A stretch of DNA of 33,209 nt, taken from NCBI GenBank assembly GCA_012512925.1, contig JAAZDE010000001.1:1-33209 (forward strand), written 5' to 3'. This DNA is from Desulfuromonadaceae bacterium. GTDB lineage: Bacteria > Desulfobacterota > Desulfuromonadia > Desulfuromonadales > JAAYDE01. This document shows positions 3,148 to 33,209 of the stretch, piece after piece; positions within the stretch are counted from its first letter, which is position 1, and every line of letters begins with the position of its first letter. The position numbers and the translations under genes are program-made. The notes beneath the pieces are model-generated. The model saw only the letters and a program-made list of their open reading frames with translations. It was not told the origin of the DNA and ran no database searches.

Positions 3148-3903
3148 TCAGAAACTCTGTCTTCTCATCATTTTCTCGACCCGAGCCAGATCTTGGGGCG
3201 TATCCACGCCGTGACTGGAGAATCCGCTTTCCACCACACGAATCCGGTAACCGTTTTCCAGGGCCCGCAACTGTTCGAGTTTCTCCACACTCTCCAAAGG
3301 GGTCGGTGAAAGCGAGGCAAAGGTGAGAAGAAACTCCCGGCGATAGACATAAAGGCCAATATGACGAAAAGCGTTCAGCCCATGCATCCCCCGGTCATCG
3401 CCGCGATCTTGGTCACGCCAATGGGGAACGGGGGCGCGGGAAAAATAGAGGGCGAAACCCTGGAGGTCCGTCACCACCTTGACCACATTGGGGTTCAGGT
3501 AGTCGCAGGGGTCGTCGATACGACTTTTCAGGGTTCCCATCGGAATGGTGGGATCGGCCGCCAGGGGCGCCACGGCCTGATCGATCATCCCCGGCTCGAT
3601 CAGGGGCTCATCTCCCTGCACGTTGACGACGATGTCGGAGTCCAGATTGGCAGCCACCTCCGCCAGCCTGTCGGTGCCGGAAGGATGGTCGGAACGGGTC
3701 ATCACCGCCTCCCCACCGAAAACCCGAACGGTTTCGGCGATTCGTTCATCGTCGGTGGCCACGATCACTCGATCGACGAGGCGGGAGCTGGCGGTGCGCT
3801 CATAGACCCATTGGATCATCGATTTGCCACACAGGGGTGCCAGCGGTTTGCCGGGAAAGCGGCTGGAGGCGAAACGGGCCGGGATGATGGCGGCAATCTG
3901 CAT
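3148..3903 (-). CDS. kdsB: CMP-KDO synthetase (3-deoxy-manno-octulosonate cytidylyltransferase)
   Basis: KdsB activates KDO with CTP to give CMP-KDO, the sugar donor for lipid A glycosylation. The 251-residue protein starts [21 protein letters not shown], the nucleotide-binding signature of the family, followed by [26 protein letters not shown] and NVQGDEPLI. Length and motif order are normal. It is first in the operon; pyrG follows after 71 nt. No strong Shine-Dalgarno sequence precedes the ATG, although the family N-terminus fixes the start. A good promoter lies about 40-65 nt upstream. Confidence 0.97.
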
Positions 3904-4938: not shown

Positions 4939-7900
4939 TTATTCCAGGACGACCACCAGATCCCCCTGCTGCACCTGCTTGCCTTCCTTGTAGAGAACCT
5001 CCCGGACCACGCCGGAGATGGGGGTTTTGATGTTGGTCTCCATCTTCATCGCCTCGGTCGCCAGCAGAGTGTCCCCTTCGCTGACGGTATCCCCGACATC
5101 GACGAATATCTTGCAGATTTTGCCCGGCATCGGCACTCCGATCTGGCAGGGATCGTTTGGGTCGGCCTTGCGGTTTTCCACCCTGTCCACCTTGACGGAG
5201 CAGTCCCTCACCGTCAGTTGCCGAGGTTCGCCGTTCAGTTCGAAATAGATGGTCCGCTGGCCCCCTTCCTGAATATGGCCGACGGCGGTCAGCTTGATGA
5301 CCACGGTTTTTCCTTCGCCGATCCGGACGGAGGTTTCGTCCATCAGATCGAGGCCGTAGAAGAAAACCGGCGTCGGCAGCACCGAGGTGTCGATATACTC
5401 CTGGCGGTGCCGGTCGAAATCCTCGAACACCGCCGGGTACATGAGCCACGACATATGATCCTCGTCGCTGATTTCATGGCCGAGTTTCTTCTCCAGAGCC
5501 GCCTTGCTGGCCACGAAATCGACCGGCTCCATCAATTCCCCGGGACGGTGGGTAATCGGCTTCTCCCCCTTGAGGACGATTTTCTGCAGTTTTTCCGGGA
5601 AGCCCCCATGGGGCTGTCCGATCATCCCCTTGAAGAATTCGACCACCCCCTGGGGCAGATCCATCTCCATGCCCCGCTCGTAGATATCCTCGGGCTGAAG
5701 ATTGTTTTTCACCATGAAGATGGCCATGTCGCCGACGATCTTTGATACGGGAGTCACCTTGATGACATCCCCGAACATGTCGTTGACCTTGCGGTACATC
5801 TTCTTGCACTCTTCCCAGCGGTCGCCGAGTCCCATTCCCTCTACCTGAGGCTTGTAGTTGGAGTACTGGCCGCCGGGGATTTCATGCTCATAGACCTGGG
5901 CGGTGCCGCTGCGCAGCTCGGACTCAAAGGGGGCGTAGTAGGTGCGCACCGTCTCCCAGTAGTTGGCCAACTGCTGCAAAGCCTCCAGATCGAGCCCCGG
6001 ATCGCGCTCGGTATTCTCCAGCGCCGAGACAAGGGCATTGAGATTCGGCTGGGCGGTCAGACCGGAGAGGGAGGAGAGGGAAGCGTCAATGGAATCGACC
6101 CCGGCCCGGTTGGCCAGCATCAGGGTGGTCAAACCGTTGCTGGAGGTATCGTGGGTATGCAGCGAGATGGGAATGCTGATCTCCTGCTTCAACGCCTTGA
6201 TCAGCTTTTCCGCCGCAAACGGTTTGAGCAGACCGGCCATATCCTTGATGTTGAGAATATGGGAACCCATCCGCTCCAGTTCCTTGCCGAGCTCCACATA
6301 ATACTTAAGAGGGTATTTGTCGCGCTTGGGATCGAGAATGTCGCCGGTGTAGCACATCGCCCCTTCCAGAACCCCGCCGTGCTTGAGTACCGAATCAAAG
6401 GCCACCCGCAGACCTTTGGTCCAGTTAAGGGCGTCGAAAACCCGGAACACATCGATACCGCTCTTCACCGACTGGGCGATGAACTCATCGATGACGTTGT
6501 CGGGATAGTTGGCGTAGCCGACCGCGTTGGAACCGCGGAACAGCATCTGGAAGACCACGTTGGGAATCTTTTCCCGCAGTTTGTGGAGCCGCTCCCAGGG
6601 GCACTCGTTGAGGAAGCGCATGGCCACGTCGAAGGTGGCGCCCCCCCAGCATTCCAGGGAGTAAAGACCGGCGCCGAGACGGGAGGTGGCATCGGCGATC
6701 TGCAGCAGGTCGAAGGTGCGGATGCGGGTCGCCAGCAGGGACTGATGGGCATCGCGCAGGGTAGTGTCGCAGATCAGCAGTTGCTTCTGCTCCAGAATCC
6801 AGTCGGCAAACCCTTTGGGTCCCCTTTCCCTGAGAATGTCGCGGGTTCCCTTGGGAGGAGCATCATGGTGATGGAACTCGGGGATCACCGGTTGACGCAG
6901 CTCCCGGAAATGCAAAGGGGTCTTGATTCCTGGATAGCCGTTGACCACGGTGTGGCCGATAAAAGACAACAGTTTGGTGGAGCGGTCCCGCTTTGGTGGA
7001 ATTTTGAACAGCTCCGGATGCTGGTCGAGAAAAGAGGTATTGCACTCGCCGGCCAGAAAACCCGGATGGGAGATGACATTTTCCAGGAAACTGATGTTGG
7101 TCTTCACCCCCCGCACCCGGAATTCGACCAGAGCGCGGTACATATGGGCCGCGGCCTCCCTGAAGTTCAGCCCATAGGTGGACAGCTTCACCAGCAGCGA
7201 ATCGTAATAGGGGGTGATCTTGGCACCGACGTAGGCATTGCCGGCGTCGAGACGCACACCGGGACCGCCCGCCGAGCGATAGGCCTTGATCGTGCCAAAA
7301 TCGGGGGCGAAATTGTTTTCCGGATCCTCGGTGCTGATGCGGCACTGGATGGCATTGCCGCGCATGGCGATATCGCTCTGCTGCTCGATGCCGATAACCG
7401 GGTCGGAGAGTTGGTACCCCTCCGCCACGCGGATCTGGATCTCCACCAGGTTGCGGGAAGTGATCAGTTCGGTAACGGTATGCTCCACCTGAATGCGGGG
7501 ATTGGTCTCGATGAAGTAAAGGTTGTCATTCTGGTCGAGCAGAAATTCCACCGTCCCGGCGTTGACATAATTGACCGCCTTGGCGATTTTCAGGGCATGG
7601 CCGCACAATTCCTGGCGCTTCTCTTCGGAAAGATAGAAGGCGGGAGCTATCTCGATCACTTTCTGATGACGGCGTTGAACGGAACAGTCGCGCTCGAAAA
7701 AGTGAACGACGTTGCCGTGCTGGTCCCCCATGATCTGGACTTCTACATGCTTGGGGTTCTCGATGTATTTTTCCAGAAAAACGGCCGCATTGCCGAAAGC
7801 GGCCTTGGCCTCGGATGCGGCGCTCTGCAATCCTTCCAGCAGTTCCTTGCGGTTGCGCACGACACGCATGCCGCGCCCGCCGCCGCCGGCGGAAGCCTTG

Positions 7901-8385
7901 ATGATGATCGGATATCCGCACTCCTTGGCAAAAAGGAGGGCTTCCTCTTCGGAATGGATCGGCTCGGCGGTTCCCGGAACCACGGGGACGCCGACCTCGA
8001 CAGCCACCTTGCGCGCCGCCACCTTGTCGCCGAGACGGCGCTGGATGTCGGAATTGGGACCGATAAAGGCAATCCCCGCCATTTCGCACGCCTTGGCGAA
8101 ATCGGCATTTTCGGAAAGGAACCCATAGCCGGGGTGGATGGCGTCGACCTCTTTTTTGAGGGCCAGATCAATGATCTCGTCGATCCCCAGATAGGCATCG
8201 ACCGGCCCCTTTCCCTTCCCGACCTGATAAGCCTCGTCGGCTTTGTAGCGATGGAGGGAAATCCGGTCCTCTTCCGAGTAAATCGCCAGGGTACTTATTT
8301 TCATCGCGGTGCAGGCGCGAAAAATCCGAATCGCAATTTCGCCCCGGTTAGCGGCCATGACCTTCCTGAAATTCTTGATCCCCAT
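4939..8385 (-). CDS. pyc: Pyruvate carboxylase, single-chain
   Basis: This biotin enzyme carboxylates pyruvate to oxaloacetate, the anaplerotic step feeding gluconeogenesis and a reductive or oxidative TCA cycle. The 1148 residues are in standard order: biotin carboxylase domain (KVMAANRGEIAIR to about residue 450, with the GGGGRGMR ATP-grasp loop), carboxyltransferase domain (CDTTLRDAHQSLLATR, then THDTSSNG as metal-site region), and a C-terminal biotinyl domain with EAMKMETN, where about Lys1114 carries biotin. GAGGAGG sits 4 nt before the ATG. The full one-chain form separates it from the two-subunit type. It is transcribed alone or with the ccdA-like gene. Confidence 0.97.
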   Translation of the reverse strand: MGIKNFRKVMAANRGEIAIRIFRACTAMKISTLAIYSEEDRISLHRYKADEAYQVGKGKGPVDAYLGIDEIIDLALKKEVDAIHPGYGFLSENADFAKACEMAGIAFIGPNSDIQRRLGDKVAARKVAVEVGVPVVPGTAEPIHSEEEALLFAKECGYPIIIKASAGGGGRGMRVVRNRKELLEGLQSAASEAKAAFGNAAVFLEKYIENPKHVEVQIMGDQHGNVVHFFERDCSVQRRHQKVIEIAPAFYLSEEKRQELCGHALKIAKAVNYVNAGTVEFLLDQNDNLYFIETNPRIQVEHTVTELITSRNLVEIQIRVAEGYQLSDPVIGIEQQSDIAMRGNAIQCRISTEDPENNFAPDFGTIKAYRSAGGPGVRLDAGNAYVGAKITPYYDSLLVKLSTYGLNFREAAAHMYRALVEFRVRGVKTNISFLENVISHPGFLAGECNTSFLDQHPELFKIPPKRDRSTKLLSFIGHTVVNGYPGIKTPLHFRELRQPVIPEFHHHDAPPKGTRDILRERGPKGFADWILEQKQLLICDTTLRDAHQSLLATRIRTFDLLQIADATSRLGAGLYSLECWGGATFDVAMRFLNECPWERLHKLREKIPNVVFQMLFRGSNAVGYANYPDNVIDEFIAQSVKSGIDVFRVFDALNWTKGLRVAFDSVLKHGGVLEGAMCYTGDILDPKRDKYPLKYYVELGKELERMGSHILNIKDMAGLLKPFAAEKLIKALKQEISIPISLHTHDTSSNGLTTLMLANRAGVDSIDASLSSLSGLTAQPNLNALVSALENTERDPGLDLEALQQLANYWETVRTYYAPFESELRSGTAQVYEHEIPGGQYSNYKPQVEGMGLGDRWEECKKMYRKVNDMFGDVIKVTPVSKIVGDMAIFMVKNNLQPEDIYERGMEMDLPQGVVEFFKGMIGQPHGGFPEKLQKIVLKGEKPITHRPGELMEPVDFVASKAALEKKLGHEISDEDHMSWLMYPAVFEDFDRHRQEYIDTSVLPTPVFFYGLDLMDETSVRIGEGKTVVIKLTAVGHIQEGGQRTIYFELNGEPRQLTVRDCSVKVDRVENRKADPNDPCQIGVPMPGKICKIFVDVGDTVSEGDTLLATEAMKMETNIKTPISGVVREVLYKEGKQVQQGDLVVVLE

Positions 8386-26308: not shown

Positions 26309-27022
26309 ATGAGCCGGATCCTGATCGTGGACGACGATGTTGAGCTGTGCGAACTGCTGACTGAATATCTCGGCCAGGAGGGTTTCGAGGTAACCTCGGT
26401 CCATAACGCCGACGACGGATTCAAGCAATCCCTTGCCAATGGGTTTGCTCTGATTGTCCTCGATGTCATGCTGCCGGGCAAGAGCGGCTTCGAGGTGCTG
26501 CGGGAGATCCGCCAGCATTCCCGGGTGCCGGTGATTATGCTGACGGCGCGGGGCGACGAGGTGGACCGCATCGTCGGCCTGGAAATGGGAGCCGACGATT
26601 ACATGCCGAAGCCCTTCAATCCCCGCGAACTGGTCGCCCGCATCCGCGCCATTCAGCGGCGCACCACCGCCCTGAAGCCAACCGCCGGGGAGGAGGAAAG
26701 TCCCCTGCTCAGAGTCGGCCGTATCGAACTCGATCCCGGCGCCCGCACCGTCCACCATTCCGGCGTGGAAGTGATCCTGACCGCGGTGGAATTTGCCTTT
26801 CTGGAGATTCTGCTGCGCCATGCCGGCCAGGTGGTGACCCGTGAAACCCTGGCCCGCGAGGTTCTCGGCCGGCCGCTCTCCCCCTACGACCGCAGCATCG
26901 ACGTCCACATCAGCAGCCTGCGGCGCAAAATCGACCCCGAGCAGCGCGGCGAGGAGCAGATCAAGACGATCCGCGGCATCGGCTACCAATTCACCTTCCC
27001 CCACGCCAAGGGGTCCCAGTGA
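26309..27022 (+). CDS. CpxR-like OmpR-family response regulator
   Basis: The 237-residue protein has a receiver domain (acidic pocket DDD at 8-10, phospho-acceptor Asp52 in VLDVMLPG, Lys in PKPFNPREL) and a C-terminal winged-helix OmpR domain (LTAVEFAFLEILLRHAGQVVTRETL, SIDVHISSLRRKI, IRGIGYQF). It resembles CpxR. AAGGAG lies 6 nt before the ATG. Its stop overlaps the kinase start (GTGA), the usual coupling of a cognate pair. CpxR-type regulators respond to envelope stress, but the targets here are unknown. The neighbouring NRPS is a possible one. Confidence 0.92.
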   Translation: MSRILIVDDDVELCELLTEYLGQEGFEVTSVHNADDGFKQSLANGFALIVLDVMLPGKSGFEVLREIRQHSRVPVIMLTARGDEVDRIVGLEMGADDYMPKPFNPRELVARIRAIQRRTTALKPTAGEEESPLLRVGRIELDPGARTVHHSGVEVILTAVEFAFLEILLRHAGQVVTRETLAREVLGRPLSPYDRSIDVHISSLRRKIDPEQRGEEQIKTIRGIGYQFTFPHAKGSQ

Positions 27023-28476
27023 CGCTCAAGGAATTCAATATCTTCCGCTTCCTGCGCAAGATACTCTCCAGCATCTTCGTCAAGATCTTCTTCTGGTTCT
27101 GGCTGGCCACCATCCTCTCCGGGATCACCTTCTACATTCTGACCACGGTCACCGAGTCCTCCACCATTGCCGAATCCCGCCAGAACCTCATCGTCCATCG
27201 CCGCCACCTGACGGGTCAGACCATAGCCATGTACGGGGAGGCGGCCATCGAGCTTTTCGAACGGAAAGGGCTCAAGGCCCTCAACAACTACACCGACAGG
27301 ATGGAGAGCACCACCGGCATCCATACCTATCTGTTCGCCAACGGCCTTCATTCGCTGGCCGGACAGGATCCCTCCCCCCAGGTTCAGATTATGGCGGAGC
27401 GCTCCCTGCGCAGCGGCAAGGTCGAATTCGGCGTTTACCGCGACACCTTTCTGGTCGCCCAACCGATGTTCAACTCCCAGGGATTGCTCTACATCATCGT
27501 CGGCGAGGTTCCCGGCGCCCCACCCCAGCCGGTGGAACCCTTTTACCGCCTCCCCACCGATTTCGGCATGCGCATGCTGATCACCTTCATCATCGGCGGC
27601 ATCATCTGTTCCTGGCTGGCCTGGCATCTGACCTCCGGCATCCGCAAACTGCGCAACGCCACCCAGTCATTCGCCCAGGGGAATCTGGCTACCAGGGTGC
27701 GCCCCAAACTCGGCAACCGGAGTGACGAGATTGGCGGCCTGGCCCGGGAATTCGACCAGATGGCGGAGCAGATCGAAGGGTTGATGACCTCCCAGAAACG
27801 GCTGCTCCGCGACGTCAGCCATGAACTGCGTTCGCCCCTGGCGCGACTCAACGTCGCCCTGGAGCTGCTCCAGCAAAAAACCGGCCCCGAGGCGGAGACA
27901 TCCCTCCACCGGATCCGCCGCGAAGCCGAGCGCCTCAACGAGATGATCGGGGAGATCCTCTCCCTCAATGCCATTGACGGTTCGGCTGAGGCCTTGGAGC
28001 AGGGAGTGGTCGATCTGGACCACCTGCTCCACGAAATCACCGCCGATGCCGATTACGAAGCCCGCGGGCGCAATTGCCGCGTCGCCCTCCATGTTTCGGA
28101 AACGGCGCAGGTCCAGGGAAACCCGGAACTGCTGGGCCGGGCCATCGAAAACATCATTCGCAATGCCGTCCACTATACCCAGGCCGAGACGACGGTTGAG
28201 GTCGGCCTCCAGGGCATCCACGACGGGAACCATCCCTGGGCCGTTATAAGCGTCCGCGACCAGGGACCGTGAGTTCCCGAGTCGGAGCTGGAAAAAATCT
28301 TTCAGCCCTTTTACCGGGTAGCCGCCGCCCGGGACCGTCAGAGCGGCGGCACCGGCATCGGACTCGCCATTACCGAACGGGCCGTCCGCCTCCACGGCGG
28401 GAGCGTCAAGGCCGCCAACCATCCCGAGGGAGGTCTGATCGTCAAGATCCAACTGCCGATGCTGCCGACGGTCTGA
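27019..28476 (+). pseudogene. CpxA-like sensor histidine kinase, interrupted by in-frame TGA
   Basis: Read through the TGA at 28270-28272, the gene encodes about 485 residues: membrane segments near 20-44 and 182-204 enclosing a periplasmic sensor, a HAMP linker, the DHp helix with phospho-acceptor His268 (RDVSHELRSPLARL), the N box (ENIIRNAVHYT), then VRDQGP-TGA-VPESELEKIFQPFYRV and the G2 box GGTGIGLAI. The TGA replaces the second glycine of the G1 box (normally GPG) by one base (GGA to TGA). As it stands the 417-residue product lacks half of the ATP site and should not autophosphorylate. A selenocysteine reading is unlikely: only a weak bulged hairpin follows. The GTG start overlaps the regulator stop. 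Confidence 0.88.
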
Positions 28477-28585: not shown

Positions 28586-28659
28586 GACCGGATTTGCGTC
28601 GATAATTGTCTCCGCATTCTGACCGCAAGGGACCAACCGGTTTGCGACCGTAGGAAATG

Positions 28660-31600
28660 ATGAAAATCCAACCCGCCTCCCGCTTCCAGGAAAAATTCGT
28701 TCTTGAGGAGAAACTTCTCGCCGGGAAGCCGTATAACAATTTCCCCATCATCTATGAAATTCGCGGGGCGCTGGACGCCGACCTGGTGGAGAGGTCCCTT
28801 CGCCATGTGATGGCCGCCCACGAATCGATGCGCGCCTGTTATCGGGAAAACCAGGGGAACCTCTACCTGGGCATCGACGACGACTGCCAACCGGTGATCG
28901 AAAAGCTCGCTTTCGCCGACCGGCAGAGGGCCGAAACCTTCATGGACGATTTCATCAGAAAGCCTTTTGACCTGCGCATGCCGCCCCCCCATAGGCTGGC
29001 CCTGATCCAACTGGGGGAGGACCATTTCATCTTCCTCCTCGTCGTCCATCACATCCTTACCGACGGCATCACCCTGGAACCGCTGATGCCCCAGTGGGCC
29101 GCCGCCTACAACGCCCTGGCCGCCGGCAAAGAACCGCCGGCCATAGCAACAGACTCTTACGCCGATTATCTCCAGAGTGAACGGGAATTCCTCAAATCCA
29201 GGGACATCCAGACCGATCTCCGTTTCTGGGAAGAGTACCTGGGCGACACACCCCTGACTGTCGACATGCCGGTTTTCAAGGGAGAAAACAGCTTCGGCGG
29301 GGTTTATTTCGAGATCCCCGGCGAGTTGAGAGACAAGATCCGGCGTTTTTCCAGGCACCGCAAAAGCACTTTCTTCTGGGCTGTCGCCGCGGCCTGGATG
29401 ACCCTTCTCTTCCGCTACAGCAATCAGCCCACGATCGCCGTCAACTATCCCGTCAACCTGCGGCCGCCGAATTTTCCCAACCTGTTCGGCCCTTTCATCA
29501 ACAACCTGCCGCTGATCGCCGAATTTGGCGGCGGCACGACCTTCGCCGGCCTCCTGGAACGAATCACCGCCGACCGGCGGCGCTGCAAGAAACACCAGCA
29601 GTGCATGCTGGCCGATATCGTTGCCCACCGGCGCGCCCGAAAATTGCCGGGCGGCGATTCGATGATGAATGTGGGTATTGCGGAAACGGCGCTGCGCACC
29701 ACCTATCCGTTCGAACTCGAGGGCCTCGATGTCCGCCATCTGGAGCCTCCCGGCGTCGGCATGGCCACCGAGCTGCTGCTGGAATACGAGGACAGGCCCG
29801 ATGCCGTCCACTGCCGCCTCGCCTACGACGGCGGCAGATATTCCAGGTGGTTCGCCGAGCGTATGGCCCACCACTTCACCGGTCTCCTTGATGCCCTGAT
29901 CGATGAACCCGAGCAGCCCGTCGCCGCCTTTTCCCTCCTCGACGAAGGGGAGAAGATTCACCTGGAGCAATGGAACGACACCACGGTGCCGCTCCGGGAC
30001 GACAGATTCCTGCACCGGATTTTCGAGGCGAAGGCGGCGGCGCGTCCCGACGCCCCGGCTGTCTGCGACCCCGCCGGAGAACTGACCCGGCGGGAGTTGA
30101 ACGAGCGTGCCAATCGCATCGCCCACGCCCTGATCGACATGGGCGTCCGGCCCGATACCCCCGTCGGCCTCGCCCTCCCCCGCGGCACCGGCCTCATGAC
30201 CGCCCTCCTAGGCATCCACAAGGCCGGCGGAGCCTATCTGCCAATTGACCCCGGCCATCCGCCCGAACGGATTCAGGGAATGATCGCGGACGCCGATCTG
30301 CGTTTCCTGGTCACCGCCTCCGACGAAGCCATCCCCTTCTCCGGAAAAATTCTGTTTATCGACGACCCCGCCCTGTCCCGCCAGGCCGACGGCAATCCGG
30401 AGGTCGCCCTCGATTACGCCCACCTCGCTTACGTTCTCTTCACCTCCGGGTCCACGGGAAGGCCGAAGGGAGTGGCCATCGAGCACCGCAGCCTGATCAA
30501 CCAGATCCACTGGCTCCAGAACCGCTTCCCCTGCGGGGAGAGGGATGTCGTCCTGCAAAAGACCCCTCTCTCCTTCGACGCCTCGGTTTGGGAGCTCTTC
30601 TGGTGGATGGTTTCCGGAGCCAGGCTGGCTCTACTGGAACCCGACGGGGAAAAGGAGCCGCGGAAAATTCTCGGCGCCATGAAGCGGTGGGGGGTCACCA
30701 TCATCCAGTTCGTGCCGTCGCTGCTCCAGGCCGTGGCGCAGAGCGTATCGGCAAAAGATGATTCGGCTTTTTCCAGGCTGCGCCATCTCTTCTGCGGCGG
30801 CGAGCCCCTCACCGGGAAGCTGATCGGGGAGGTGCGCGCCCTGCCGGGATTTTCGGCCTCGGTCCACAATCTCTACGGCCCGACCGAAGCGACCATCGAC
30901 GCCGCCTGGCACACCTGCCCCGACCCGGCTCCCATGGCGATCCCTATCGGCCGCCCCGTGGACAACACGCGGATTCATATCCTCGACGGCCGGGGATCGC
31001 GGCAGCCGGTCGGCATTCCGGGCGAGCTGTGCATCGCCGGGGTGCAGGTGGCCCGCGGCTATATCGGCAATCCGGAGCTGACCGCGGCGAACTTTATCCC
31101 CGATCCCTTCAGCGCGGGAAGGCTCTACAAAACCGGCGACCTGGCCCGCTGGCTGCCGGACGGGACCATCGAGTTTCTCGGACGGATCGACCAGCAGGTC
31201 AAAATCCGCGGCTACCGTATCGAGACGGGAGAGATCGAAAGCGTCCTGAAACAACATCCCGCCGTGACCGAAGCGGTGGTCCACCCTTATGGGAAGGAGA
31301 GGGAAAAACGCCTCGGCGCCTGGATTGCCGGCGCGGCCGAGCCCTGTGAATTGCGCCTCCATCTGGCCCAAAGGCTTCCCGACTACATGATGCCGTCGGC
31401 GTTCATGAAGATCGACGCCTTTCCCCTGACCGCCAGCGGCAAGATCGACCGCAAGGCGCTGCCCGACCCGGAACCGGCCCCGATGACCGTCTATGAGGCC
31501 CCGCGCAACGCCGAAGAAGAACAACTCTGCTTCCTCTTCGCCAAGGTGCTGGATGTCGAGCGGATCGGCATCCATGACGATTTCTTCCAACGCGGCGGCC

Positions 31601-33209
31601 ACAGCCTGCTGGCGATCCGCCTCATCAACACCATCGCCCAGACCTTCGCCGTCGAGATGCCGCTCAAGGCTCTGTTCGAGAATCCCACCCCCGCTTCTTT
31701 ACTGGAAAAAATCGCCGCTTCCGCCAACACGGATTTTCTCCCTCTGAAAAAAAGCGGCCTCAAAGAAGCCCCCCTGTCCTTCGCCCAGACCCGCTTCTGG
31801 TTTCTCGACCGTTTCGAGGGAGAAAGCGGCGGCTACAACATCCCCGCCGCCCTCCGCATCGGCGGCGACCTCGACCTCGGCGCCCTGGAAAAATCCCTGG
31901 GATTTCTGCTCGCCCGCCACGACACCCTGCGCACCGTGTTCCGGGAAAGTTCCAGCGGCGCCATCACCCAGCGGGTCCTCGATCCGGTCCCCTTCGTCCT
32001 CCCCTTGGAAACAGCGGTGGAAAGTGAACTCAGGGAAAAACTGGCCGAGGAATCGAGCCGCCCCTTCGATCTCACCCGCGGGCCGCTCTACCGTTTCCGG
32101 CTTTTCCGGATCGGGACCGGGGATCACGTCCTGTCGATCAATATCCATCATATCGTCTTCGACGGCTGGAGCTTCGGCATCCTTTTCGAGGAGCTCGCTT
32201 CTTGCTACGAGGCGTTCCGCAGCGGGGAAAATCCCCTTCTGCCGGAACCGCCGGCCACCTACCTCGACTATGCCATCTGGCAGCGGCAATGGCTCGACGG
32301 GGTACGACTCGACCGCCACAGCCGCTATTGGAAGGAAAAACTGGCCGGAATCCCGGCCCTGCTTTCCCTCCCCACCGACCGGCCTCGTCCCGAGATCCTC
32401 AGCAGCCATGGCGGCCACGTCCCGGCAACCCTCGGCGTCCCCCTTGCGGAGGCGCTGTCCGGCCTGGCACGCTCGCGGGGAGTCACCCTGTTCATGGCCC
32501 TGGAGACCCTGTGGGCGGTTTTTCTGGCCAAATACAGCGGCATGGAGGATATCGTCGTCGGCACCCCGGTTTCGGGCCGGGTCCGTCCCGAGATCGAAAG
32601 AATCACCGGGCTTTTCGTCAACACCCTGCCGTTGCGCCATGACCTGTCGGGAAATCCGACCTTCGCCGATCTCCTCGCCAAGACCAGGGACACCCTCCTC
32701 GAAGCCGATGCCCACCAGGACCTCCCTTTCGAAAAACTGGTGGAGGAACTGGCGCCGACCCGAAGCACCGGCCATACACCGGTTTTCCAGGCCATGTTCG
32801 TTCTCGGCGAGGAATCCTTCGACACCGTCCGTCTTCCCGGCCTGGAAACGGTGCCCCTCTTTCCCGAATTCGACAGCGCCAAGTTTGACCTGACCCTGAG
32901 CCTCGGCCTTTACGGCGGCCGCCTTGACGGCCACCTCGAATTCAGCAGCGACCTCTTCGATCGGCAGACGGCGGAACGGATGGTGAGGCACTTCGCCCGC
33001 CTCGCTGCCGAAGCGGTTCGCCGGCCGGATACGCCGATCTCGGAGCTGTCCCTGGTCGACGGTGCTGAGCGGCGTTTTGTGGTGGAGGAATGCAACGCCA
33101 CGGCGGCGGATTATCCCCGGGATAAAACCCTCCACCGGCTTTTCGAGGAGCAGGCGGAACGGGTTCCCGGCCAAATCGCCGTGCGCTGCGGCGCGGATCA
33201 GCTCACCTA
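28660..33209 (+). CDS. Nonribosomal peptide synthetase, C-A-PCP-C-A... (3' end cut by window edge)
   Basis: At least 1516 residues of a multimodular NRPS. Order: condensation domain 1 (about 10-430; HHILTDG with His130/His131), adenylation domain 1 (about 450-940; FTSGSTGRPKG, NLYGPTEAT, KTGDLARW, LTASGKIDRK), carrier domain with phosphopantetheine Ser982 (RGGHSLLAI), condensation domain 2 (about 1035-1470; SFAQTRFWFL, HHIVFDG) and the start of a second adenylation domain. Both condensation active sites are intact. By alignment to the GrsA pocket, adenylation domain 1 reads D-A-W-Q-F-G-L-I-D-K; from memory this resembles glutamine-type codes. No epimerase domain is seen in module 1. The N-terminal condensation domain suggests acylation of the first residue or receipt of a chain from another synthetase. 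ATG 28660 is chosen over 28657 for spacing from AGGA. Confidence 0.95.
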   Translation, partial: MKIQPASRFQEKFVLEEKLLAGKPYNNFPIIYEIRGALDADLVERSLRHVMAAHESMRACYRENQGNLYLGIDDDCQPVIEKLAFADRQRAETFMDDFIRKPFDLRMPPPHRLALIQLGEDHFIFLLVVHHILTDGITLEPLMPQWAAAYNALAAGKEPPAIATDSYADYLQSEREFLKSRDIQTDLRFWEEYLGDTPLTVDMPVFKGENSFGGVYFEIPGELRDKIRRFSRHRKSTFFWAVAAAWMTLLFRYSNQPTIAVNYPVNLRPPNFPNLFGPFINNLPLIAEFGGGTTFAGLLERITADRRRCKKHQQCMLADIVAHRRARKLPGGDSMMNVGIAETALRTTYPFELEGLDVRHLEPPGVGMATELLLEYEDRPDAVHCRLAYDGGRYSRWFAERMAHHFTGLLDALIDEPEQPVAAFSLLDEGEKIHLEQWNDTTVPLRDDRFLHRIFEAKAAARPDAPAVCDPAGELTRRELNERANRIAHALIDMGVRPDTPVGLALPRGTGLMTALLGIHKAGGAYLPIDPGHPPERIQGMIADADLRFLVTASDEAIPFSGKILFIDDPALSRQADGNPEVALDYAHLAYVLFTSGSTGRPKGVAIEHRSLINQIHWLQNRFPCGERDVVLQKTPLSFDASVWELFWWMVSGARLALLEPDGEKEPRKILGAMKRWGVTIIQFVPSLLQAVAQSVSAKDDSAFSRLRHLFCGGEPLTGKLIGEVRALPGFSASVHNLYGPTEATIDAAWHTCPDPAPMAIPIGRPVDNTRIHILDGRGSRQPVGIPGELCIAGVQVARGYIGNPELTAANFIPDPFSAGRLYKTGDLARWLPDGTIEFLGRIDQQVKIRGYRIETGEIESVLKQHPAVTEAVVHPYGKEREKRLGAWIAGAAEPCELRLHLAQRLPDYMMPSAFMKIDAFPLTASGKIDRKALPDPEPAPMTVYEAPRNAEEEQLCFLFAKVLDVERIGIHDDFFQRGGHSLLAIRLINTIAQTFAVEMPLKALFENPTPASLLEKIAASANTDFLPLKKSGLKEAPLSFAQTRFWFLDRFEGESGGYNIPAALRIGGDLDLGALEKSLGFLLARHDTLRTVFRESSSGAITQRVLDPVPFVLPLETAVESELREKLAEESSRPFDLTRGPLYRFRLFRIGTGDHVLSINIHHIVFDGWSFGILFEELASCYEAFRSGENPLLPEPPATYLDYAIWQRQWLDGVRLDRHSRYWKEKLAGIPALLSLPTDRPRPEILSSHGGHVPATLGVPLAEALSGLARSRGVTLFMALETLWAVFLAKYSGMEDIVVGTPVSGRVRPEIERITGLFVNTLPLRHDLSGNPTFADLLAKTRDTLLEADAHQDLPFEKLVEELAPTRSTGHTPVFQAMFVLGEESFDTVRLPGLETVPLFPEFDSAKFDLTLSLGLYGGRLDGHLEFSSDLFDRQTAERMVRHFARLAAEAVRRPDTPISELSLVDGAERRFVVEECNATAADYPRDKTLHRLFEEQAERVPGQIAVRCGADQLT

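Follow-up and report, generated by a model that had tools for sequence, protein, structure and literature searches.

A truncated synthetase gene of a Desulfuromonadaceae bacterium probably opens a hybrid NRPS-PKS assembly line with a divergent N-terminal condensation domain

The synthetase gene that is cut at the right end of the window, i.e., of the whole stretch of 33,209 nucleotides that was analyzed, most likely encodes the beginning of a modular hybrid NRPS-PKS, a well-known class within which it represents an understandable new line. Its first domain, C1, is not an ordinary LCL condensation domain, as judged from its position in phylogenetic trees, and may be starter-like, of a lineage of its own. 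We consider it probable that the line starts with an acyl-capped Gln, passes through modules for a D-residue and an aromatic residue, incorporates one malonyl unit, and ends with release by a TE domain of an N-acyl-peptidyl beta-keto acid.

The reading frame of the synthetase (1517 aa) starts with an ATG at position 28657, followed by a second ATG at 28660, and was still open at the contig end in the ORF listing. The window is the entire contig C102, which is exactly 33,209 bases long, and the gene was thus truncated by the assembly and not by the choice of the window. This agrees with the earlier note, which had described the gene as cut and most of the cluster as lying outside. The source genome is fragmented (2.6 Mb in 213 contigs). 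The order of the domains in this frame is C1-A1-T1-C2-A2(start), and Pfam reported two condensation domains, an AMP-binding and an AMP-binding_C domain, and one carrier domain, with scores so far above the cut-offs that chance is excluded. The features of this region are listed below, with G001 designating a genome of the same genus.

26309–27022, + strand: CpxR/OmpR-type response regulator, possible cluster regulator (Pfam, NCBIfam; same order beside the NRPS gene in G001)
27019–28272, + strand: CpxA-like histidine kinase, with an in-frame TGA at 28270–28272 after which the frame continues to 28476 (Pfam HATPase, partial)
28657–33207, + strand: first gene of the hybrid NRPS-PKS, 3' end cut (open ORF, Pfam, translation)
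28666–29961, + strand: C1, N-terminal condensation domain of a divergent lineage, HHILTDG at 29047–29067 (PF00668 4–454 of 456, 193 bits; predicted model with pLDDT 92; trees)
30022–31443, + strand: A1, adenylation domain, code DAWQFGLIDK, predicted Gln (PF00501 1–383 of 384; AMP-binding_C; alignment with the EntF control)
31522–31707, + strand: T1, carrier domain with FFQRGGHSL (PF00550)
31762–33075, + strand: C2, ordinary LCL-type condensation domain, HHIVFDG (PF00668 3–453 of 456, 360 bits)
33120–33207, + strand: start of A2, cut by the contig end (translation compared with the A-domain starts of two other synthetase pieces)

The closest PDB structures of C2 were Txo1, Txo2, DhbF, and TycC6, and C2 fell inside the LCL clade in the tree. 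The pocket residues of A1 lie within 30577–30900, with the Lys encoded at 31441–31443. The alignment gave the code DAWQFGLIDK for A1 and DVWHFSLVDK for the EntF control, the latter being the expected and known Ser code of E. coli EntF. All nine readable A1 code residues of G001 were identical to those of the window, and the A1 code of G003, a genome of the same family, differed by one conservative change. The glutamine-type code announced in the earlier note was thus reproduced by a controlled alignment, and it is identical to an entry assigned to Gln in a published code-substrate table (PMC2866473). A1 is therefore predicted to select Gln.

The remainder of the line was sought by a domain-family search of the same genome, in which condensation domains were found only on C102, C133, and C82. 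Contig C133 (3.3 kb) carries T(end)-C-A-T-KS(start), with an LCL-type C domain, and C138 carries KS-AT-T-TE with a stop at 3738; C138 yielded no KR, DH, ER, or methyltransferase domain in the domain search. C133 and C138 overlap by the nine bases AACCTGATC, and joining them at this point, in the middle of the KS domain, keeps the reading frame through to the stop. This join is well supported, since G002, from the same family, has C-A-T-KS-AT-T-TE in one frame of 2283 residues ending in a stop, and G003 has a piece with C(end)-A-T-KS-AT. Contig C82 (3.9 kb) carries A(end)-T-C-A-T-E(start), its last domain matching best the solved epimerase (E) domains. The C domain of C82 matches domains of McyB, PvdL (C3), bacitracin synthetase, SrfA-C, and TycB, several of them preceded by an epimerase, and we take it to be of the DCL type from established knowledge. 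It directly follows a GGDSI carrier domain (L007 1–1668), with no epimerase between the two and without a dual E/C motif.

The codes obtained by alignment were DVPHFSLIEK for C82 and DASTIAAVCK for C133, the latter being kept in G002 and nearly kept in G003. From general knowledge of the published code tables, we take the former to be Ser-like and the latter to be Phe/Tyr-like; a literature search for aromatic and Ser-like codes returned only the EntF-type Ser code. The AT domain of C138 carries HAFH, the usual malonyl motif. A reading of the window as a plain NRPS was dropped once the KS-AT-T-TE pieces, which lie outside the window and therefore escaped the earlier note, were found in the genome, and, from its domains, the line is a hybrid NRPS-PKS in which C-A-T modules are joined to a KS-AT-carrier unit.

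The line is spread over four contigs, of which the overlap supports only the C133/C138 join, and we infer the order C102, C82, C133, and C138. The T domain at the beginning of C133 is immediately followed by an LCL domain, so that the remainder of the epimerase and at least one module would lie between C82 and C133, or C82 would be a separate gene. In the latter case, whichever way C1 works, C82 would come from another gene or cluster and the main line would be reduced to C1-A1(Gln)-T1-C2-A2-T2-C-A(aromatic)-T-KS-AT-T-TE, C133 directly continuing A2-T2 of C102, as its opening T-domain end and LCL domain would allow. The DCL-type and E domains of C82 belong to another lineage, and no counterpart of C82 was found in G001, G002, or G003, although these genomes are incomplete. 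On the other hand, the A domain of C82 shares 51% identity both with that of C133 and with A1, compared with 34–41% for EntF, and the GC content of the pieces agrees (0.627–0.631). We regard a separate C82 as a real possibility, but not as the favored one, and retain C82 as part of the line.

C1 is the first domain of the line: it is N-terminal, starting at about residue 3 in a protein without N-terminal extension, has no carrier domain ahead, and is preceded by two-component genes. It spans 4–454 of the 456 positions of PF00668 and its HHILTDG motif is intact, confirming that the synthetase opens with a complete condensation domain, as the earlier note had put it. An assignment of C1 to the dual E/C or heterocyclization domains, for which HH[I/L]xxxxGD near the start, or DxxxxD instead of HHxxxDG, served as criteria, was rejected, as HHILTDG is intact and there is no second His motif at the start.

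C1 was placed in trees with solved or context-labelled reference domains, the starter condensation domain class being taken from Rausch et al. 2007 (PMC1894796). In two trees, the C1 domains of the window, G001, and G003 formed their own lineage with a support of 100/100. This lineage adjoined the starter domains of RzmA and CDA1 and Streptomyces N-terminal domains in the first tree (support 97/87), and was sister to RzmA-Cs, CDA1-Cs, EntF-C, and the Streptomyces N-terminal domains in the second one (98/94). In a third tree, from which the starters were removed, C1 remained outside all 43 LCL rows, so that it lay outside the LCL clade in three of three trees. C1, like all six starter/EntF rows, lacks the Trp found after HHxxxDG in most LCL rows.

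These placements have to be weighed against other measures. The AU test did not reject a tree in which C1 and the LCL domains form one clade (p = 0.34), and the C1 lineage sits on a long stem (1.6), which makes long-branch attraction possible. The raw score of C1 was 127 bits against Txo1 (LCL) and only 52 and 41 bits against RzmA-Cs and CDA1-Cs, respectively, in which it differs from a true starter domain used as a control. Likewise, the predicted model of C1 fits Txo2, DhbF, and HtmB2 slightly better than CDA1. Typing C1 as LCL from its best PDB match alone was nevertheless abandoned in view of this control and of the trees, which put C1 outside the LCL domains.

C1 could also be a diverged ordinary LCL domain, with a separate A-T loading protein docking to deliver the first residue and Gln being residue 2. 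The best sequence and fold matches in the PDB, which are LCL domains, and the AU test are in favor of this, but C1 was outside the LCL clade in every tree and there is no N-terminal extension ahead of it. Moreover, a search of the genome, whose fragmentation means that absence is no proof, gave no further amino-acid A-T unit. Its remaining C, A, and T domains either belong to later pieces of this line or seem to come from ordinary metabolic genes, and the other AMP-binding genes scanned look like acyl-CoA/acetyl-CoA ligases, a FlxY-like ligase, and the FAAL protein described below. We consider this explanation unlikely. Of the two options in the earlier note, an upstream partner synthetase in cis was not found, the two upstream genes encoding the response regulator and the histidine kinase, and lipo-initiation is the better one, as C1 lies beside the starters and outside the LCL clade, even if the AU test leaves the LCL alternative standing. 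Similarly, the ordinary LCL assignment, which that note held out as an outcome against it, was not borne out by the trees, whereas a sister position to LCL was not rejected.

With C1 read as a starter-like domain, acyl groups could be supplied in the same genome by acyl-CoA ligases and by an ACP-FAAL-acyltransferase protein. The latter, an ACP-FAAL-PlsC fusion encoded on C54 (L028:7048–10038, − strand), is 75% identical in G001 and 63% identical in G002, and was not found in seven other genomes of the order. Its gene adjoins sugar nucleotide and DNA ligase genes and, its neighbors being unrelated, is only a lead as a donor source; no acyl ligase gene was found beside the synthetase pieces. The starter group is itself no proof of a fatty acyl-CoA donor, since it also includes EntF, whose aryl donor is bound to a carrier protein in trans. 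Another possibility is that C1 uses an uncommon donor, perhaps an aryl or a short acyl group on a dedicated carrier in trans, as EntF does with dihydroxybenzoate, and not a fatty acyl-CoA. This would explain its own lineage and is in keeping with the position of EntF within the group next to C1, with the conserved, family-specific C1 motif DG(I/T/V)TLEPLxPQW, and with the occurrence of the FAAL protein in the window's genome, G001, and G002. We regard it as unlikely, as no gene for the activation of an aryl acid was found near the pieces and the FAAL protein is not encoded near them and was not found in G003, which is 83% complete and has C1. The same genome also contains, on C59 (L114), a flexirubin/aryl-polyene-like cluster with an aromatic amino acid lyase, an MMPL exporter, a FlxY-like ligase, several KS genes, carrier proteins, and two B12 radical SAM genes.

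In the preferred reading, C1 would acylate Gln on T1, the acyl group arriving as an acyl-CoA or on a separate acyl carrier protein. The N-acyl-Gln chain would then be elongated over further modules, among them a Ser-like module with an epimerase, so that one residue would be turned to D; these domains were seen, and their order is the one proposed above. After addition of an aromatic (Phe/Tyr-like) residue, the KS would add one malonyl unit, which no domain would reduce or methylate, and the TE would release the chain, probably as an N-acyl-peptidyl beta-keto acid. This acid may decarboxylate to a C-terminal methyl ketone or undergo cyclization. The unrejected LCL topology (AU test), the long stem of C1, and its higher scores and better model fit with LCL structures weigh against this scheme, as does the fact that the contig order is inferred and that A2, beyond its start, and probably at least one module are missing.

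Several known systems resemble parts of this line. CorA, the coralinone synthetase of Corallococcus, is organized as A-T-C-A-T-KS-AT-ACP-TE, and its reconstitution showed that the product forms via a dipeptidyl beta-keto acid that decarboxylates (PMC10979478). As in CorA, NRPS modules lead into a single non-reducing KS-AT-ACP-TE unit, by which the chain would be extended with malonyl and released by the TE as a peptidyl beta-keto acid. However, CorA starts with A-T, which leaves a free amine and allows closure to a pyrazinone, whereas the line described here is longer and starts with C1. A CorA-type pyrazinone product was discarded for this reason, as C1 would cap the amine. The epoxyketone synthetases TmcG/TmcH and EpnG/EpnH combine an N-acyl start with one malonyl extension and TE hydrolysis to a beta-keto acid (PMC9943649), and thus share with the line proposed here an N-acyl peptide made from an acyl thioester, a single malonyl extension, and a beta-keto acid ending. 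They differ by the dimethylation of the alpha carbon and by a flavin-dependent decarboxylase-desaturase-monooxygenase; neither a methyltransferase domain nor such a gene was seen on the pieces, and an identity as an epoxyketone synthetase was rejected on the lack of a C-methyltransferase domain in the PKS module (C138).

Uncharacterized hybrids from Sinorhizobium plasmids (e.g., WP_180942295.1) share 39–40% identity across the KS-AT-T-TE part. Like the present line, these C-A-T-KS-AT-T-TE proteins start with a C domain, but they have a single amino-acid module and different neighbors. One such single-module locus lies at L112:12698–19759, and one plasmid has an M81 metallopeptidase gene nearby. 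At the level of the first domain, C1 is like RzmA-Cs and CDA1-Cs in that it is the first of its line, has an intact HHxxxDG without a subsequent Trp, and is their sister in the tree; unlike them, its lineage is long and stands apart, and its scores are higher with LCL structures than with these two domains.

The distribution of C1 was analyzed in 136 genomes of the order. The C1 lineage was present in three of them, all from one family, and no orthologue other than those of the window, G001, and G003 was found in this set; C1 of the window shares 57% identity with its counterpart in G001 and 53–54% with that in G003. A scan of 85,000 species genomes with two narrow peptide patterns, by which distant relatives may be missed, returned only two close relatives, on contigs matching those of G001 and G003 in length. 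Both are Deltaproteobacteria MAGs, one from Zodletone ('Zod_Metabat.652', the place being taken from the isolate name) and one from water buffalo rumen. The named relatives bear out the "Desulfuromonadales-like" origin suggested in the earlier note only to the level of "Deltaproteobacteria bacterium" MAGs. This specific line and its first domain have so far been found only in one family of uncultured anaerobes. Other condensation domain proteins were also encountered in the order: G001 encodes a stand-alone one of 442 aa (contig C21, L117, 320–1645, − strand) that was not found in the window's genome, and G025, from another family, has a separate large NRPS cluster with frames of 4032 and 1891 aa (contig C6, L062/L063).

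The genes upstream of the synthetase were also inspected. In the kinase gene, the TGA codon at 28270–28272 corresponds to Gly in three orthologues (G001, G002, and G003), and the 67 codons that follow are intact and close to those of G001, which points to a fresh nonsense change or a sequence error. Beyond the two-component pair lie an opposite-strand gene with NAD-binding and DUF2867 parts and then enolase. The same regulator-kinase-synthetase order was found in G001, with a different gene beyond, suggesting that the pair travels with the synthetase. In G002, the same pair lies beside a phosphopantetheinyl transferase gene (contig C66, L118, 2–2692), the C-A-T-KS-AT-T-TE end being on another contig. 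The kinase orthologue of G003, however, lies on another contig among other genes, so that the pair was not accepted as a certain cluster member; its link to the cluster is likely but not certain. In G003, the kinase orthologue is followed by a gene (contig C86, L119, 2780–3913) whose product, as judged by reading, is similar to a type III secretion gatekeeper protein. Further upstream in the window, a pyruvate carboxylase-type biotin enzyme of 1148 aa is encoded at 4939–8385 (− strand), near a CTP synthase gene and a KdsB-like cytidylyltransferase gene.

Of the accessory functions expected downstream by the earlier note, a TE domain was found in C138. No phosphopantetheinyl transferase or dedicated transporter gene was seen beside the pieces, but a phosphopantetheinyl transferase of the Sfp/AusB group is encoded elsewhere in the genome, on C35, with scores below the NCBIfam curated cut-offs and above those of Pfam.

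Finally, the natural products described from this branch of anaerobes are few, and the one predicted here is a capped peptide that ends in a reactive ketone or keto acid at its C terminus, an end group that in the epoxyketones leads to protease inhibitors. The cluster is an orphan with clear testable predictions and does not involve a new principle. A bolder proposal, which we regard as improbable, is that C1 represents an undescribed N-terminal condensation subtype beside the starter and LCL types, with a donor of its own, in a line by which anaerobes would make beta-keto acids or methyl ketones of N-capped glutaminyl peptides. C1 provides a test case for the evolution of donor choice between starter and elongating condensation domains.
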